Below are positions 3,015-38,237 of a DNA stretch of 41,472 nucleotides, in pieces. The notes under the pieces are model-generated. The model searched no databases and was not told where the DNA came from. It worked only from the letters and a program-made list of their open reading frames with translations. This DNA is from Bacteroidota bacterium (GTDB lineage: Bacteria; Bacteroidota; Ignavibacteria; Ignavibacteriales; Ignavibacteriaceae): assembly GCA_022564295.1 (NCBI GenBank), contig JADFLR010000036.1, positions 1 to 41,472 of the forward strand, read 5' to 3'. How positions within the stretch are numbered: the stretch's first letter is position 1; each line of letters begins with the position of its first letter. Position numbers and translations under genes: made by a program.

Positions 3015-4010
3015 TCACTCCATTTTCATGCCCCGTGTCATCAAATCATTTGTAGCTTTAACGGGATCTTTATCCTCAAATAGGATTTTATATACTTCAT
3101 TTGTAATCGGAGTTTCAACATCAAACTTTTTGGCAAGCTGAAAAGCTGAACGGCTTGTTTCAACGCCTTCTGCTACCATGTCCATTGATTTTAATATTTG
3201 TTTTAATTTTTTGCCTTTACCAAGCTGTTCGCCAACATACCTATTGCGGCTGTGTTTACTCATGCAGGTAACAATTAAATCGCCCATTCCGGAAAGTCCG
3301 GCAAATGTTTCGGGTCTTGCCCCCATTGCTAAACCGAGACGGGAAATTTCAGCAACACCGCGTGTCATTATTGCTGCTTTTGTGTTATCTCCAAAACCTG
3401 CGCTGTCAATTATTCCTGCACCAATTGCAATAACATTTTTAAATGCACCGCCGAGTTCAACACCAAGAATATCGGTGGAGGAATAAACTCTAAAATAAGA
3501 ATTCATAAAAGCTGCTTGAACAATTTTTGAGGTCTCCTCATCTTCCGAAGCTGCAGTTACAACAGTCGGAATTCTTCTGCTTACTTCTTCGGCGTGGCTT
3601 GGGCCGGAAAGGACTCCTATTTGTTCTTTAGTTAATTTTGGATGAACATCAACCAGCATTTCTGCCATGGTCATTAAAGTGCCCTTTTCAATTCCCTTGG
3701 AAACACTGATAAATATTGCATTTTTTATATCGGAATAATTTATTTTTTTCACAACTCCTCTTAAGAATTGTGAAGGCGTTGAGAGAACAATTAAATTTTT
3801 ATCTGTAGTTGCTTCTTCAATGTTATAAGAAATGTTCATCTCTTCAGGAATTTGAACGCCGGGTAAATACAACGAGTTGATACGCTTTTTTATTAATTCT
3901 TTAGCGTAACTTTTTTGATATTCCCACAGTGTAACGGAATGACCATTATAATGAAGTAAAATTGCGAGGGTAGTTCCCCATCCTCCGGCACCGAGTACGG
4001 AGACTTTCAT
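3015..4010 (-). CDS. gpsA: NAD(P)+ glycerol-3-phosphate dehydrogenase
   Basis: It reduces dihydroxyacetone phosphate to sn-glycerol-3-phosphate, the backbone for phospholipids. The N-terminal Rossmann motif GAGGWGT is at residues 7-13. The catalytic-domain signatures ELGGAFKNVIAIGAGI and GLSGMGDLIVTC are present, and the length (331) is normal. It lies 4 bases downstream of plsY on the same strand, so product and user of glycerol-3-phosphate are co-transcribed. Function is secure by family. Confidence 0.96.
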   Translation of the reverse strand: MKVSVLGAGGWGTTLAILLHYNGHSVTLWEYQKSYAKELIKKRINSLYLPGVQIPEEMNISYNIEEATTDKNLIVLSTPSQFLRGVVKKINYSDIKNAIFISVSKGIEKGTLMTMAEMLVDVHPKLTKEQIGVLSGPSHAEEVSRRIPTVVTAASEDEETSKIVQAAFMNSYFRVYSSTDILGVELGGAFKNVIAIGAGIIDSAGFGDNTKAAIMTRGVAEISRLGLAMGARPETFAGLSGMGDLIVTCMSKHSRNRYVGEQLGKGKKLKQILKSMDMVAEGVETSRSAFQLAKKFDVETPITNEVYKILFEDKDPVKATNDLMTRGMKME

Positions 4011-4014
4011 CTAA

Positions 4015-4683
4015 TCAAGACTTCTGCTTTTTCTTAAAATTAAGTTTATTCTCTGTTCCGTTAAATATTTTAACAACATTTTTACGATGAGTGTACATTA
4101 CAAAAAATGCTAAAAATATTACAAACGGAAGTATAGTTGTGTAACCACTAACATGTTCGTGAAGGATATTCTCTCTCAAAATCAAACTGATGGGGATTGA
4201 AATTGCAGCACTTAATGAGCCAAGAGAAACATACTTTGATACAGAAACAACAAGAATAAACACACCGAGAGCAATTAACATCTCAACAGTAATAATCATT
4301 ATTAACATTCCAAGTGCTGTTGCTATCCCTTTGCCGCCTTTGAATCCAGCAAACACCGTCCATACATGCCCAATTACAGCAGCAATACCAGCAATTATTT
4401 GCACTAAAGTAAAATCATCGAAAGGGGAAATGTTTTCAAACGGAAGTGGACCGTAAAAGAGTCTTGCAACTACAACTACTGCAAAAGCACCTTTCATTGC
4501 ATCTAAAAAGATTACAAGCACCCCATGTTTCCAGCCAAGCACACGCATAACATTTGTTCCGCCTGCACTGCCGCTTCCATGCTCGCGAATGTCAATTCCT
4601 TTTACTGCTTTACTTATAATTATGCCCGATGGAATTGAACCAACTAAATATGATAATATTATTATTATTGCGAGAAGTATCAT
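4015..4683 (-). CDS. plsY: acyl-phosphate:glycerol-3-phosphate acyltransferase PlsY
   Basis: This integral membrane enzyme transfers an acyl group from acyl-phosphate to glycerol-3-phosphate, making lysophosphatidate. The PlsY loop motifs are visible: GSGSAGGTNVMR (about residues 36-47) and AGFKGGKGIATALG (about 112-125). Several hydrophobic helices fit the family's multi-span topology. The basic tail (KKKQKS) is cytoplasmic-like. It forms a tight operon with gpsA. The gap to the upstream aldo/keto reductase gene is 150 bases, so it may have its own promoter. Confidence 0.95.
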   Translation of the reverse strand: MILLAIIIILSYLVGSIPSGIIISKAVKGIDIREHGSGSAGGTNVMRVLGWKHGVLVIFLDAMKGAFAVVVVARLFYGPLPFENISPFDDFTLVQIIAGIAAVIGHVWTVFAGFKGGKGIATALGMLIMIITVEMLIALGVFILVVSVSKYVSLGSLSAAISIPISLILRENILHEHVSGYTTILPFVIFLAFFVMYTHRKNVVKIFNGTENKLNFKKKQKS

Positions 4684-21738: not shown

Positions 21739-23913
21739 ATGAAGAAGATAGTAATTTTATCAACATTGCTTTCTACGATATTGATGATCGTACTGATAAC
21801 TACTTCACTTGATTCAGATGCATCAAGCCACCGTGAAGCGCCGTTGATAAGTGTTGATCCGCTTGCTGACAACACTGATCTGTATGTGTTCAGATCACCG
21901 GATGATACGAACACAGTAACTATAGTGGCAAATTATGTGCCGCTTGAATTACCGGAAGGCGGACCGAATTATTCATCCTTTGGTGAAGGAATTTACTATG
22001 AGATTCACATTAAGAATCAGACCTCAGTGGGTCCGTTGGGGACAGCAAAGGACGATATTACCTACCGGTTTACATTCAGCCAGACGAACGAAGATCCCAC
22101 AACATTCTTTAATATTCGTCTCGGACTGCAGAATCTTAAAACAACATACGTTGCTGAAAAGAGCACAGATGGGGGAAACTCTTTCGTCACAATAGTCTCA
22201 AACGGAGTGGTTCCTCCAAATAATATTGGTCCCCGATCCATTGAAGGCGGCGTAGGACTGAGCACTACTTATTCAGCTTTAGTTCAGAGTGCAATAATAA
22301 CTGCGTCAACAGGGGAGAAAATATTTTGCGGACCACGCGATGATCCATTCTTTGTGGATTTGGGCGGCGTGTTCGACCTTGGGGAGACAAGAAGTGAGTA
22401 CGGTTCCGATCCTTCGAATTCCAATTACGCGAGAGATGCGGTTGCAGGATTTAATACACACTCAATAATTATGCAGATACCGATAAGCAATTTGCAGAAG
22501 AATGGCTATTCTGTCGGTCAGGCAACAAGCATCCTCGATCCCGATTTTGTAATTGGTGTCTGGGCTTCCGCAAGTAGGCAGATGATTACTACGCTCTCTC
22601 CAACCGGCGAAAAGCCGACTTACAGCGGGCCGTGGATACAAGTATCACGTTTGGGCATGCCTTTAATTAATGAGGTAATTATCCCAATCGGAGAGAAAGA
22701 TCATTGGAATGCTGTAACTCCATACAGTGTTGATGAGCAGAGCTTTATACAATATTTTTCTAATCCCGAACTTGCACTTTATATGGATGACAGTCAATTT
22801 GGTACAGCAATTCCCGGGCTGGAGCCTTTAAGAATTCAATCGATGTCTTACCCGGGTATAGGGATAATACCAGGCTACACGATGCCTGGTTTCGATTTTA
22901 GAAATTTTAAGGACGGTGCATGGGCAGTTACACAACTTGATCCACCTCCGGATTTAACAGGTACCGCATTTGCAGTAAATCTTAATGTAGGATTAGTTGC
23001 TCCAGGTCAACCGCGGTTAGTGGATATCTATCCATTATATTATTTCGGAGTTCCAAACCTTATTCCTTATCATTTGGCAACCGGCAAAACTAGTGGTCCT
23101 TTAAGTGAGGGGAAGCCATTTATTCATAACTTTTTGCCTATAACTGATGATAACGGTCTCTTGTATGGCGGTGATATGTTAAGATTGAATATGGCTACTC
23201 CCGTAACCGAAAGAGGTACAGAAGAATATATTCAGAATGCTTTTGAAGGATTGATAAGAGCGGCTGTGTTGGGTTTAACTGTAGCTCCTTACAATACAAC
23301 TGCCGATTTGGAATTTATTCCTCATATGGATGGTTTCCCTAATGGTAGAAGGCTTGAGGATGATGTAACAACGATAAGTCTACAAGCAGTTGGTGGACTT
23401 TTACTTGCTGCCATCGGATTACCTTTTGATGATGCGGTTGAACCGGACTACTCAGACTTGGTTTCGCCCATGCTCGTAGCTGAGCTTACTTACAATGCAG
23501 GTCCAACTCAGAATGATATTGGACTTTCGTACGATTATCCGTTTCTTGTAGATCCACATCGCGGATTTGACTATGTGAAATCACTTACAGCATCTGAACC
23601 TGGAACGGTAGTATCGATAGGTACAGACCCGTTGGGATTAAGTATTCCTAAAGGATTTATACTTGAACAGAACTATCCCAATCCCTTCAATCCTTCAACA
23701 ACTATTAGCTACCATGTTGCAGAAGAAGGTCATGTTGTTCTGAAGGTATTTGATTCTCTGGGTCAGGAAGTTTCTACACTTGTAAACAATGATCAATCAC
23801 CGGGCATTTACGAAATAAATTGGAATGCTTCGGCTTTAGCGAGTGGCACTTATTTTTACAGACTCGAGATAGGAAACGAGGTAGTAACAAAGAAAGCACT
23901 CTTGCTTAAGTAA
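21739..23913 (+). CDS. secreted DUF4331 protein with type IX sorting domain
   Basis: A strong ribosome binding site (AAAAGGAG) precedes the ATG. The 724-residue product has a signal peptide ending near SDA|SSHREAP; SSHREAP, then DPLADNTDLYVFRSPDD, is the hallmark of DUF4331. The domain fills about residues 28-620, and a type A sorting domain (LEQNYPNPFNPSTTISY to KKALLLK) closes it. The function of DUF4331 is not established. The clustered His, Asp and Glu near the mature N-terminus could bind metal, but that is a guess. It heads a set of envelope genes (TPR, DUF6702, HupE/UreJ). Confidence 0.9.
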   Translation: MKKIVILSTLLSTILMIVLITTSLDSDASSHREAPLISVDPLADNTDLYVFRSPDDTNTVTIVANYVPLELPEGGPNYSSFGEGIYYEIHIKNQTSVGPLGTAKDDITYRFTFSQTNEDPTTFFNIRLGLQNLKTTYVAEKSTDGGNSFVTIVSNGVVPPNNIGPRSIEGGVGLSTTYSALVQSAIITASTGEKIFCGPRDDPFFVDLGGVFDLGETRSEYGSDPSNSNYARDAVAGFNTHSIIMQIPISNLQKNGYSVGQATSILDPDFVIGVWASASRQMITTLSPTGEKPTYSGPWIQVSRLGMPLINEVIIPIGEKDHWNAVTPYSVDEQSFIQYFSNPELALYMDDSQFGTAIPGLEPLRIQSMSYPGIGIIPGYTMPGFDFRNFKDGAWAVTQLDPPPDLTGTAFAVNLNVGLVAPGQPRLVDIYPLYYFGVPNLIPYHLATGKTSGPLSEGKPFIHNFLPITDDNGLLYGGDMLRLNMATPVTERGTEEYIQNAFEGLIRAAVLGLTVAPYNTTADLEFIPHMDGFPNGRRLEDDVTTISLQAVGGLLLAAIGLPFDDAVEPDYSDLVSPMLVAELTYNAGPTQNDIGLSYDYPFLVDPHRGFDYVKSLTASEPGTVVSIGTDPLGLSIPKGFILEQNYPNPFNPSTTISYHVAEEGHVVLKVFDSLGQEVSTLVNNDQSPGIYEINWNASALASGTYFYRLEIGNEVVTKKALLLK

Positions 23914-23930
23914 ATTATAATAATTATTTA

Positions 23931-23991
23931 CCGCAGATGCTGCACCGGTTATGATACTGGGTGGCTATTATTCCGGCAGCAGTATCTGTGG
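23931..23991 (+). terminator. long stable hairpin between DUF4331 and TPR genes
   Basis: The 13-base arm CCGCAGATGCTGC (23931-23943) pairs with GCAGTATCTGTGG (23979-23991) in RNA, with two G-U pairs. An inner CCGG/CCGG (23945-23948 with 23973-23976) extends the stem. No T-run follows, so it is more likely a partial terminator or mRNA-end protector that keeps DUF4331 expression above that of the downstream genes. Confidence 0.55.
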
Positions 23992-24013
23992 TGGTAATCT
24001 AAAAGGCATATAA

Positions 24014-34305: not shown

Positions 34306-35727
34306 ATGTCTGAAAAAATAAATTTAGTAGTGATTGGCGGAGGACCCGGGGGATATGCTGCTGCATTTCTCGCAGCTGATTTGGGAATGAATGTAACACT
34401 TGTTGATCTTGAAAAAAATCCCGGTGGTGTTTGCTTGTACACAGGATGTATTCCATCCAAAGCATTACTGCACGTTGCAAAATTAATTAGCGAAGCTGAA
34501 GAAGCTAAAAACTTTGGAGTGGAATTTTCCAAACCGAAAATTGATATTGATAAGTTAAGAAGCTGGAAAAACGATGTAGTAAACAAACTTACCGGCGGAC
34601 TTGGTGTTTTATCAAAACAAAGAAAAATTAATTATATCCGTGGGAAAGCAAGTTTTGTAAATTCGTCGGCCGTTACTATTGAAAAAACAGAAGGCGGAAT
34701 GGAAGAATTAAAGTTTGATAAAGCAATTATAGCAACAGGTTCGCGCATAACAACAATACCATCTTTAGAAATTAAAAGCGAAAGGTTTCTTAACTCAAAA
34801 ACTGCGCTTGATCTTCCAGCAATCCCCAAAAGTTTGTTAGTAATAGGCGGCGGATATATTGGATTGGAACTTGGTTCGGTATACAATGCTCTCGGCAGTA
34901 AAGTTTCTGTTGTTGAAATGCTTGACGGACTGCTGCCCGGGGCTGATAGAGATCTTGTTTCACATCTTGCAAAGAGAATTAAAAGTAGTTTTGAAGAAGT
35001 GATGCTTAAATCAAAAGTGGTTGAGATAAAGGAAGTTAAGAATGGTGTAAAAGTAACAATAGAAGATAAAGATGGAAATATAAATGATAAGATTTATGAT
35101 TATGTGTTAATGTCCATCGGAAGAAAACCGGATATGTCGGGTTTGGGATTGGAGAATACAAAAGTGCAGGTTAACGATAGAGGTTGGATAAATGTAAATG
35201 AGCAGTTAAGAACAGATGATCCAAATATTTTTGCTATCGGCGATATTGTCGGTGATCCAATGTTAGCACATAAAGCTTCGCATGAAGGCAGAGCTGCTGT
35301 TGAAGTAATAGCAGGCGAGAAGGTTGTATTCGAACCAAAAGCTATTCCGGCAGTTGTGTTTACCGATCCGGAAATTGCATGGGCAGGATTGACTGAAACA
35401 CAAGCGAAAGAACAAAATGTTAAAGTTAATATCTCAAAATTTCCTTGGGCTGCTTCGGGCAGGGCAACTACTTTGGATAGGTTTGACGGTGTTACAAAAA
35501 TTCTTTCTGAACCGGAAACTGATAGAATACTTGGTGTTGGGATTTGCGGACCGGGTGCGGGTGAGCTTATTGCCGAAGGTGTATTAGCGATAGAAATGGC
35601 TGCTAACTTAACTGATTTAAAGTTAACAATTCATCCGCATCCGACTTTATCCGAAACTATGATGGAAGCGGCTGAAGTTTTTTTCGGGCAGAGTACACAT
35701 ATTTATCGACCTAAAAGAAACAAGTAA
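34306..35727 (+). CDS. lpdA: dihydrolipoyl dehydrogenase (E3)
   Basis: It reoxidises the dihydrolipoyl arm of E2 and reduces NAD+. The FAD motif GGGPGGYAA is at 11-19. The redox-active pair is C43 and C48 in GGVCLYTGCIPSKALL, where the usual GGTCLNVGC is altered at the variable positions. The NAD motif is GGGYIGLELGSV, and the C-terminal HPHPTLSE holds the proton-shuttling His-Glu pair. The length of 473 is standard. Last gene of the operon, 90 bases after aceF. Confidence 0.96.
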   Translation: MSEKINLVVIGGGPGGYAAAFLAADLGMNVTLVDLEKNPGGVCLYTGCIPSKALLHVAKLISEAEEAKNFGVEFSKPKIDIDKLRSWKNDVVNKLTGGLGVLSKQRKINYIRGKASFVNSSAVTIEKTEGGMEELKFDKAIIATGSRITTIPSLEIKSERFLNSKTALDLPAIPKSLLVIGGGYIGLELGSVYNALGSKVSVVEMLDGLLPGADRDLVSHLAKRIKSSFEEVMLKSKVVEIKEVKNGVKVTIEDKDGNINDKIYDYVLMSIGRKPDMSGLGLENTKVQVNDRGWINVNEQLRTDDPNIFAIGDIVGDPMLAHKASHEGRAAVEVIAGEKVVFEPKAIPAVVFTDPEIAWAGLTETQAKEQNVKVNISKFPWAASGRATTLDRFDGVTKILSEPETDRILGVGICGPGAGELIAEGVLAIEMAANLTDLKLTIHPHPTLSETMMEAAEVFFGQSTHIYRPKRNK

Positions 35728-36069: not shown

Positions 36070-37632
36070 TTACATCAACCACTCAATTTCTTCAAGCCAA
36101 ACATAAAGCATGTCTTCATCGAGTGTTAATAAATCCTTTCTGTTTATATCGTCGGGATGCGGGAATAATTCATCAAGTTTATCATATACTACTCGCCGCT
36201 GTCCCGGTTTTACTATGCGAAAAAGATTCCACAATGTTATTCCATCTTTTGCTGAAGACGATTCAATTATCATATTTAAATTTATGTCGCTCTTTCTGCC
36301 GAATATGTATTCTTCCAGGAGGTTAATAAACTCGGAGGTTGAGGATGTATGAAAAGGCAGACCTGCTCCTGCATTGTTTAATATTTTTAAATTATATTCA
36401 CCGGGAAATATAAATTCAGTTTCACTGGAAATGACCTGAAGCCAACCGTCTATTAATTCTATCGCTGAATTACCGCTTTCATCTAAATGTAAAATGTAAT
36501 TTGAACCAAGACTGAACTCATTAATAATTGCTTGAGAAATTTCGATGTGCAAAAGATCTTTAGCACCATCTGTATTTACAATTATTTTACCGATCACTAA
36601 TTTTGCAGAATAACTTCCGCCAAGTCTTTCTATTGTCGTACTTTCAAGTATTTCAATCGTTCCCACATCAGGCATTTCTAATGTTGCTTCAGAAATATCA
36701 TTAGTTTGTACTATGTCTCCGATATTAATTTCAGTATTACCAGCTATAATTTGATTATTTAACTGCGGTGTTCCCGACTTAATTACCATTGTCCATTGAG
36801 TTGTATCCGAAAATAAGTATAAGAAAAATGTAACCAGAACTGCAATGATGATGGGATAAAGAAGAAACTTTTTATTAAAATGTAATTTTGGTATTTCCCT
36901 CTTAATTTTTATCTTATCAATTTTTTGTTCTACTTTGTTTTCTTTTGTTTCTTTTCTGTACTTAAGAATTTCTTCCTTTAATCTTTTTTTCTCTTCTTTC
37001 TCCCAATCTTCAAATTTCATATCATGGATTTTATCCAGGGCATATTTTAACAGATTCTTTTCGGGAATGATCTCTCCTGGTAAATTTTCTAACTTTTCAA
37101 GCACAGTATCAACCGATGGCTTTTCATCAGATCCACTTTTAATAGTTTTAATAGAATCGGTGATCCTCTGAGCAATATCATTCGTTCCAATATCAAGCAT
37201 TTTTGCTATAGCATCGGCAGAGTAATTTTCTATAAAATTTAAAGTAAGGATAAATTTATTTGTATCGCTTAATTTTAGGTATTCTTTGGCAACAGATGAA
37301 GATGGAAATTTTTCAATCAATTCATAATCTTCTAATTCTTTGGGCTCATCAGATTTATCTTGTTTTTTTAATTCATGTAGTGCAACGTAAACTGTAATGT
37401 CTTTTATCCACTCAGCAAAAGTGATATCTTCATCTATTGTGTCGGTAAAATCCCAGGCATTAATAAAGGTATTAATGGTTATTAAGTCAGCGGATGGTTT
37501 ATCGCCTGTTAGCAAAAATGACAACTTATAAATTTTACCGAGGTTCATTTCAAAAAGCTGTTCTAACGCAGCATTGTTACCTCGTTTTGCACTCTCAATT
37601 AGGGATCGGATAAATTTGTTGTCCTGTGTCAA
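36070..37632 (-). CDS. fused ECF-sigma-like / transmembrane / FecR-like protein
   Basis: The 520-residue protein has three parts. Residues 1-165 look like an ECF sigma factor: region 2 (GKIYKLSFLLTGDKPSADL, then TFAEWIKDITVYVALHEL) and region 4 (SADAIAKMLDIGTNDIAQRI). A charged, probably coiled stretch (205-250) leads to one membrane helix (256-275). Residues 285-395 look like FecR (GDIVQTNDISEATLEMPDVG, IEILESTTIERLGG). A C-terminal motif (GITLWNLFRIVKPGQRRVVYDKL, about 455-520) recurs, as I recall, in FecR-linked proteins of other phyla. Sigma and FecR are normally separate proteins. Here the sigma part would be tethered to the membrane until cleaved, or may no longer bind DNA. It is divergent from a cytochrome c gene. 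Confidence 0.8.
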   Translation of the reverse strand: MTQDNKFIRSLIESAKRGNNAALEQLFEMNLGKIYKLSFLLTGDKPSADLITINTFINAWDFTDTIDEDITFAEWIKDITVYVALHELKKQDKSDEPKELEDYELIEKFPSSSVAKEYLKLSDTNKFILTLNFIENYSADAIAKMLDIGTNDIAQRITDSIKTIKSGSDEKPSVDTVLEKLENLPGEIIPEKNLLKYALDKIHDMKFEDWEKEEKKRLKEEILKYRKETKENKVEQKIDKIKIKREIPKLHFNKKFLLYPIIIAVLVTFFLYLFSDTTQWTMVIKSGTPQLNNQIIAGNTEINIGDIVQTNDISEATLEMPDVGTIEILESTTIERLGGSYSAKLVIGKIIVNTDGAKDLLHIEISQAIINEFSLGSNYILHLDESGNSAIELIDGWLQVISSETEFIFPGEYNLKILNNAGAGLPFHTSSTSEFINLLEEYIFGRKSDINLNMIIESSSAKDGITLWNLFRIVKPGQRRVVYDKLDELFPHPDDINRKDLLTLDEDMLYVWLEEIEWLM

Positions 37633-37823: not shown

Positions 37824-38237
37824 ATGACAAAACCTCAGATTTGGGTAGCATCGTTTTTAGTGCTGTTTATTTTGTTATTTATCATTGGGAGAATTACAAA
37901 AGAAGAAGAAACATTTAAACCTATTTCCAACGAAAATTTTAGTGATCAAACTTCAAGTGAAAATTTAACCGCAGAAGAATTAATAGCAAATTTTGGCTGT
38001 ACTAACTGTCATGGTGTTGATCTTAATGGAACAAAACAGGGACCTGCGCTTAAAGATATAAGCCAGAAGTTTGGCAGAAGAGAGTTGATTGCATATCTGC
38101 GTAATCCTAATTCGTTTATGGGTTCAGAACGATTTCTAAAATACAGAGAACAATTTCCCGGGGTAATAATGCCTAATTACGGCAATAAGGATGTGAAGGA
38201 TTTAGGGAAAATTACAGATTACCTTCTCGAACGCTAA
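37824..38237 (+). CDS. membrane-anchored monoheme c-type cytochrome
   Basis: An N-terminal helix (residues 6-23) acts as anchor or uncleaved signal, putting the 137-residue protein's heme domain in the periplasm. One heme site CTNCH (C59, C62, H63) is followed by a likely axial Met in VIMPNYG (M116). GPALKDISQKFGRRELIAYLRNP is the usual helix of class I cytochromes. It would shuttle electrons between respiratory complexes. No oxidase or reductase gene adjoins it. Confidence 0.9.
   Translation: MTKPQIWVASFLVLFILLFIIGRITKEEETFKPISNENFSDQTSSENLTAEELIANFGCTNCHGVDLNGTKQGPALKDISQKFGRRELIAYLRNPNSFMGSERFLKYREQFPGVIMPNYGNKDVKDLGKITDYLLER

Follow-up and report, generated by a model that had tools for sequence, protein, structure and literature searches.

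Gene and domain layout of the fusion protein

The window, a stretch of 41,472 nucleotides of Ignavibacteriaceae DNA, contains a 520-residue open reading frame on the minus strand (36070-37632) that starts with TTG and has no internal stop, and that encodes a sigma-FecR fusion protein. The homologue codons aligned with the TTG start are ATG, GTG and TTG, with other codons in some. The gene, the domains of its product and two flanking genes are as follows:

34306..35727, plus strand: dihydrolipoamide dehydrogenase-like gene (named by reading), convergent, marking the conserved genomic slot
36070..37632, minus strand: whole fusion gene, TTG start codon at 37630-37632
36076..36336, minus strand: C-terminal helical domain, residues 433-519 (alignment and model; common to split FecR-type partners)
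36340..36795, minus strand: FecR/PupR-type periplasmic beta domain, residues 280-431 (fold match; FecR profile in a homologue)
36805..36867, minus strand: single membrane helix, residues 256-276 (model, helix 258-274, and sequence)
36868..37011, minus strand: charged helical linker, residues 208-255 (alignment and AlphaFold2 model)
37012..37086, minus strand: putative helix-4-like segment of an anti-sigma domain, residues 183-207 (alignment; the preceding zinc-finger bundle is absent)
37129..37299, minus strand: sigma4-like domain, residues 112-168 (family profiles and fold match)
37348..37632, minus strand: sigma2-like domain, residues 1-95 (family profiles and fold match to sigmaE region 2)
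37600..37623, minus strand: lineage-specific N-terminal motif DNKxIRSL, residues 4-11 (alignment of relatives)
37824..38237, plus strand: divergent cytochrome c gene (Cytochrom_C, 1e-6), a neighbour of the fusion gene only

The initial annotation had read an ECF-sigma-like domain, a membrane helix and a FecR-like domain in one chain, and this three-part architecture was upheld. The helix that it placed at residues 256-275 agrees with the model, whereas the FecR-like part, given as 285-395, extends to about residue 431, and the helical domain at 433-519, with its pattern LTLWNLL...VYDKL...PxPxxV...L...ML..WLEEIE, had been missed. Basic residues precede the membrane helix and an N-in topology is predicted. 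Elsewhere in the window, G+C rises to 0.426 at 22001-24000, over a 724-residue open reading frame, against 0.31-0.40 in the other 2-kb steps.

Residues ~6-169 of the window protein match the NCBIfam families SigY (4e-12) and SigW (5.1e-12), below every curated cut-off shown, and SigW is also the best match among PDB sequences (3.8e-6); the sigma70-ECF profile gives about 31.3-33.6 bits and does not reach its cut-off of 42.9. Similarity of the N-terminal part to the sigma family, as first proposed, is clear in these profiles, though below cut-off, and the Pfam matches of the window protein itself are sub-threshold (Sigma70_r4, E 0.037; Sigma70_r2, E 0.14, 12.4 bits against 24). Across the 15 fusion proteins described below, at E<=0.1, Sigma70_r2 matches 13 (best 8.8e-8; the window protein is not among them), Sigma70_r4_2 matches 13 (best 1.6e-11) and FecR matches three (best 2.3e-6), one homologue exceeding the Pfam FecR cut-off with 32.5 bits. 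Pfam FecR matches neither the window protein, even with the limit relaxed to E<=10, nor anything in its genome at E<=0.001, so that the FecR assignment comes from homologues and fold.

The AlphaFold2 model of the window protein (mean pLDDT 82.7, pTM 0.49) recovers SigW-like and PupR-like folds. Residues 5-171 superpose on SigW (Z 14.8, rmsd 4.5 over 157 residues), residues 1-93 on sigmaE region 2 (Z 15.1, rmsd 1.9 over 92) and residues 303-431 on the PupR signalling domain (Z 15.4, rmsd 2.6 over 125), the matches to FecR/PupR-type domains being 6ovk (Z 15.4) and 4m0n (Z 14.9). The FecR-like region of the earlier reading, for which the window protein has no Pfam match, is recovered as a fold. 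In Foldseek comparisons of the sigma part, the anti-sigma-bound SigW target gave TM 0.67-0.69 and the RNA polymerase-bound 6dv9 and 6jbq 0.41; several other anti-sigma-bound sigmas gave only 0.47-0.57, and the stretch between the sigma domains is modelled at low confidence. Profiles, model and fold comparison together place a sigma2 and sigma4 fold in the window protein, followed, in the predicted structure, by one membrane helix and a FecR periplasmic fold.

Relatives, genomic slot and the missing zinc-finger bundle

A protein search of 97 genomes gave a match in 74, many to ordinary sigma factors only, among the matches listed. From these matches 60 stretches were taken, with candidates partly scored; they contain 14 fused genes of the same class as the window gene (class A; 15 with the window), nine fusions of a second class (class B; 473-645 residues, one ended by the contig end), 31 split pairs and five sigma-only forms, while one stretch (L058) gave no target. 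The 14 other class A fusions are 24-43% identical to the window protein (alignment A1). Counting the window, at least 15 single-frame class A fusions are found in 13 Ignavibacteriales genomes, so the same fusion does recur in related genomes, and an assembly or frameshift artefact is ruled out.

The named relatives are mostly labelled Ignavibacteriales, Ignavibacteriaceae or Ignavibacterium. A scan of genome contigs with the single window protein found no relative, and the same scan with alignment A2 returned seven loci pointing to Ignavibacteriales, including one in Bacterium BMS3Abin03 (3077-4657). When profile A1 was run against 247 genomes drawn from across the phylum (E<=1e-8, up to six candidates scored per genome), whole-length matches occurred, among the matches listed, in three genomes, all of the window's own family. 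In one genome (G081) the two halves were matched separately within a single frame of 576 residues, which is a class B fusion; other FecR-type halves were confined, among the matches listed, to the window's order and one genome of the same class (G100), and the remaining listed matches were to sigma factors.

The dihydrolipoamide dehydrogenase-like gene (cluster c2) adjoins the target gene convergently at 11 of 15 class A loci, at all five sigma-only loci and at two split pairs (L062, L064). Farther out lie other dehydrogenase-complex parts, a cytochrome c (c5) and an aldolase-like gene (c10), mostly named by reading; profile checks of neighbour names covered one member each of the cytochrome c, SIMPL and DUF255 clusters. 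Four class A genes lie off the slot (L033-L036), two apiece in two genomes of the same genus. Two relatives at the slot consist of two overlapping genes, one sigma-like and one encoding a zinc-finger-TM-FecR anti-sigma protein. As to the number of independent fusions, the tree needs five changes between fused and split states, but the starred branches force only one per group, the method being quick and the branches long. The make-up of the slot varies among relatives between split, fused and truncated forms. Two class B fusions (L052:5068-6756 and L060:2-1420) carry a zinc motif between their sigma and FecR parts and are possible intermediates.

The immediate upstream neighbour of class A genes is a cytochrome c at four of 15 loci and a DUF255/thioredoxin-like cluster at seven of 15. 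The suggestion that the divergent cytochrome c is a target of the fusion protein accordingly finds no support in the fusion loci, and a special relationship of this kind is unlikely. In the wider set, a small pilin-like protein of ~125-150 residues (MGxQQLLLIxLGVI..., with a GGGG motif; L034:2893-3270, L035:5509-5886, L066:6735-7118, L085:6776-7159 and others) is encoded close to the sigma/FecR genes (within ~160 bp, same strand) at 21 of the 60 loci with a target. It had no Pfam match (two sequences tested) and no NCBIfam match of weight (11 tested), and for the wider family it may be a partner or a target. Six matches to it lie elsewhere in the window genome, two of them partial, and none beside the fusion gene. 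The same genome also encodes a 452-residue protein (L111:1333-2691, contig G000:C9) with sigma region 4 (Pfam 7.4e-8) and, by eye, a region 2-like stretch, followed by a likely membrane helix and a further domain.

The split partners identify what the fusions have lost. At E<=0.01, zf-HC2 is found in 18 of 31 partners and FecR in 17 of 31, and the motif H-x(2-4)-C-x2-C lies near the N-terminus in 24 of 31. In 21 of 31 pairs the sigma-like gene and the partner gene share 4 bp. All four counts include L091, which was moved to the canonical set for other comparisons. The zinc motif is present in none of the 15 class A fusions, none of which has a cysteine in residues 151-260, and it is still found in two of nine class B fusions. 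An alignment of 15 fused, four split and five truncated forms places the loss at ~39 columns missing from the fusions. Some 20 residues further on, a segment LPxxIxPxxxLxxxI can be recognised in the majority of rows of the fused, split and truncated forms. Profile comparison pairs A1 columns 154-531 with split-partner columns 27-405 (E 1.2e-61), although the first ~20 paired columns, where the last sigma4 helix faces the end of the zinc finger, are probably a forced pairing.

In solved anti-sigma complexes, helices 1-3 are described as forming a bundle of which helix 1 binds sigma4, and helix 4 as binding sigma2 where it holds the clamp helices of RNA polymerase (PMC7406223). Judged by its place, the segment kept in the fusions would correspond to anti-sigma helix 4. 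A cytoplasmic anti-sigma domain of the kind found in FecR-type regulators is absent from the fusions, in which only the helix-4-like segment is left.

The five sigma-only relatives (L046-L050) show the same deletion, and consist of the sigma half and the helix-4-like segment without the FecR half. The next gene lies just 7-282 bp away, which leaves too little room for a FecR half, and among the matches listed for their five genomes (candidates partly scored) there was no separate match to one. The C-terminus of L050 is a membrane helix, those of L046 and L049 are strongly amphipathic basic stretches, and L047 and L048 have short basic-aromatic tails without a convincing amphipathic helix. At the homologous start position L048-L050 have CTT or CTG and not ATG, GTG or TTG, for which reason ORF callers shorten these proteins and their expression is uncertain.

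Contact positions of the sigma half and its possible role

The sigma halves were compared with 31 canonical ECF sigma factors, comprising ten of 24 sigma hits from the window's own genome (L096-L105; primary-type, partial and unrelated hits, the window gene and the second fusion, L111, were set aside), 20 picked by hand from the protein-search matches listed, and L091. Columns were chosen on 21 canonical ECFs and tested on the other ten, all from the window's genome. Polar columns were kept at 75% in this held-out set, 33% in the 15 class A fusions and 40% in split forms, and hydrophobic, Ala or Gly columns at 82%, 81% and 83%, respectively. At individual positions, Q53 falls from 29/31 in canonical ECFs to 1/15 in fusions, D50 from 22/31 to 0/15, N82 from 29/31 to 1/13 and the aromatic residue at 77 (Y or F) from 26/31 to 0/15.

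Over nine contact-type positions, a descriptive list chosen with all 31 canonical sequences in view and placed by sequence alignment rather than by superposed structures, the fusions keep a mean of 1.27 (range 0-3), the split relatives 1.53 (30 rows) and the ten own-genome canonical ECFs 7.80 (range 4-9), and the window protein matches one contact class of nine (N54). Ten core positions are kept at 9.73 in the fusions and 8.90 in the ten own-genome canonical ECFs. The last sigma4 helix, the recognition helix, has a mean net charge of -0.80 in the 15 fusions, +0.60 in the split forms and +3.81 in the 31 canonical ECFs (fusions versus canonical, p 4.9e-8, which is not exact because the sequences are related); the basic -35 recognition helix expected of a working ECF sigma is thus absent from the fusions. 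For sigmaH, clamp-contacting residues are reported to be conserved across sigmaA and ECFs, and F72, T76, N77, W81, I85 and N88 to matter for the -10 element, the equivalent of N88 varying among real ECFs (PMC6411747). The fusions keep W75 and a hydrophobic residue at 79, which align with W81 and I85 of the -10 pocket.

The sigma half is under purifying selection in two close homologue pairs. With domain borders set by the analyst, dN/dS is 0.061 for the sigma half and 0.096 for the FecR half in L039/L041 (dS 0.88), and 0.157 and 0.184 in L044/L045 (dS 0.67); these are the two closest pairs, and those with larger dS, including the pair of the window protein and its nearest homologue, L032, are near or past saturation. 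Lineage-specific residues accompany the conserved core: with the near-copies L041 and L045 left out, R9 is present in 16 of 18 fusion or truncated rows, in none of 31 canonical and in none of 30 split rows, and E24 in 18 of 18 class A and truncated rows against 23% of canonical ones. Three slot-type split forms (L061, L062, L064) have K at the R9 position.

Of the two readings offered at the outset, proteolytic release of a sigma factor or a tethered scaffold, the evidence leans towards the scaffold, because the contact positions are lost, the anti-sigma bundle has been removed and relatives at the same slot keep the sigma half without the FecR half. The reading modestly favoured here is that the fusion is a membrane-tethered pseudo-sigma module rather than a releasable sigma factor, and the fused, worn-down descendant of an ECF-sigma/zinc-finger-FecR anti-sigma gene pair. 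The sigma-like domain would no longer make a working RNA polymerase holoenzyme; co-opted and held at the inner membrane as a docking platform, it would be retained because of its shape and of a partner that it binds. The leftover helix-4-like segment may lie in cis against the surface of sigma2 that formerly bound RNA polymerase. Beyond the membrane, the FecR domain could report an envelope signal, or act as an anchor, by altering what the cytoplasmic module binds.

The strongest objection to a tethered module is that the split pairs, mostly with a zinc-finger partner, share the same losses. If these relatives, 24 of 31 with zinc-motif partners, are working sigmas, the losses are no proof that function is gone; either the family as a whole had given up transcription by the time of the fusion, or the contact losses are tolerated. 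The retention of W75 and the hydrophobic residue at 79, as aligned, and the variability of the N88 equivalent in real ECFs also speak against the module.

The broader proposal, that in Ignavibacteria a sigma factor and its FecR-type anti-sigma have turned into an adaptor with the shape of a sigma, anchored in the membrane and never in contact with RNA polymerase, is put forward tentatively and may well prove too strong. Its stages stand at one slot, as two genes, as a fusion without the zinc-finger lock, and as a sigma half on its own, which in some relatives ends in a membrane helix or an amphipathic tail.

An IutY-like membrane pro-sigma, in which an outside signal would lead to cleavage by Prc/RseP-type proteases and set free a sigma domain that has diverged yet is still active, is rather unlikely. 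The domain order is that described for IutY (PMC5411451, PMC9249621), the Trp of the -10 pocket and its hydrophobic neighbour are kept, and in homologues the sigma half is under purifying selection, which is consistent with an active factor; the lost contact positions, the neutral to acidic recognition helix and the truncated relatives that retain the sigma half without a periplasmic part argue against one. An RseP-family protease in the window's own genome exceeds its cut-off (284.3 bits), but its presence says little, as RseP matches occur in 14 of 14 control genomes and pass the cut-off in nine. Nor did alignment of eight groups of upstream regions, judged by eye on few sequences and with no statistics, reveal a convincing shared promoter-like element.

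PhyR is a soluble protein with a receiver domain, whose sigma-like domain no longer serves as a sigma factor. A mimic of this kind, in which the sigma-like domain would trap the anti-sigma of another ECF and so free that sigma, is improbable. The likeness lies in weak Pfam matches (PhyR_sigma-like in five of 15 fusions at E<=0.1, best 0.0014) and in PhyR structures among the fold matches (4qic_A, Z 9.8), and three zf-HC2 candidates over cut-off elsewhere in the genome could supply a partner. Canonical sigma structures match better, however, no specific partner was identified, and a receiver domain such as that of PhyR was found neither in the window protein (Pfam; best 25 of 37 NCBIfam families) nor among the 24 Pfam families in the fusions. 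A fusion decaying towards a pseudogene, to which the varying composition of the slot and the non-ATG starts might point, is hardly credible given dN/dS of 0.06-0.18 over both halves in two close pairs and open frames at 15 loci.

Should the tethered pseudo-sigma module be correct, living relatives would still display, next to one another, the steps by which a sigma/anti-sigma pair was co-opted for a use other than transcription; a sigma-domain hit in genomes of this kind should then be counted as a sigma factor only once its contact residues have been checked. Should the family instead be active, its members would be sigma factors able to work with most of the usual contact residues missing, and that too would be informative.

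Comparison with known systems

Among the papers listed on ECF sigma/anti-sigma pairs in Ignavibacteria, fused sigma-FecR proteins and degenerate sigma-like domains, covered through titles and the openings of abstracts with few subscription journals, none dealt with this family. The layout of sigma part, membrane helix and FecR domain is itself already known from IutY of Pseudomonas putida (ECF243), described as one chain with cytoplasmic sigma2-sigma4, one membrane helix and a FecR-like periplasmic domain (PMC9249621, PMC5411451), and several ECF groups are reported to be fused to membrane anti-sigma parts (PMC8999054). The statement in the initial annotation that sigma factor, regulator and anchor are normally separate proteins therefore needs qualification, IutY having the same layout (PMC5411451, PMC9249621, PMC8999054).

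IutY is reported to act as a sigma factor that Prc and RseP set free upon an aerobactin signal (PMC5411451, PMC9249621), and sigma2 and sigma4 are all that is described for its cytoplasmic part (PMC9249621). Since IutY is active with these two domains, a missing zinc-finger bundle alone is no sign of lost function. The window protein resembles IutY in carrying sigma part, membrane helix and FecR domain on one chain, and differs from it, as far as the published description of IutY goes, in lacking the contact-type positions; further differences are its charged linker, the helical domain added at its C-terminus and the position of its gene beside central-metabolism-like genes.

The ECF48, ECF52 and ECF53 proteins, such as SCO4117, likewise join a sigma domain to a membrane-bound anti-sigma part (PMC8999054), but are described with a zinc finger and membrane helices, whereas the window protein has no zinc finger and its outer part is FecR-like. 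FecI/FecR and Leptospira LIC_12757/LIC_12756 pair a sigma factor with a single-pass FecR-like regulator, the two-gene layout that the split relatives share (PMC12155086); in contrast to the fusion, they are described as two proteins with a working sigma. The split relatives differ from the FecI/FecR type in that they mostly have a zinc-finger anti-sigma domain and their sigma part is without the usual contact residues.
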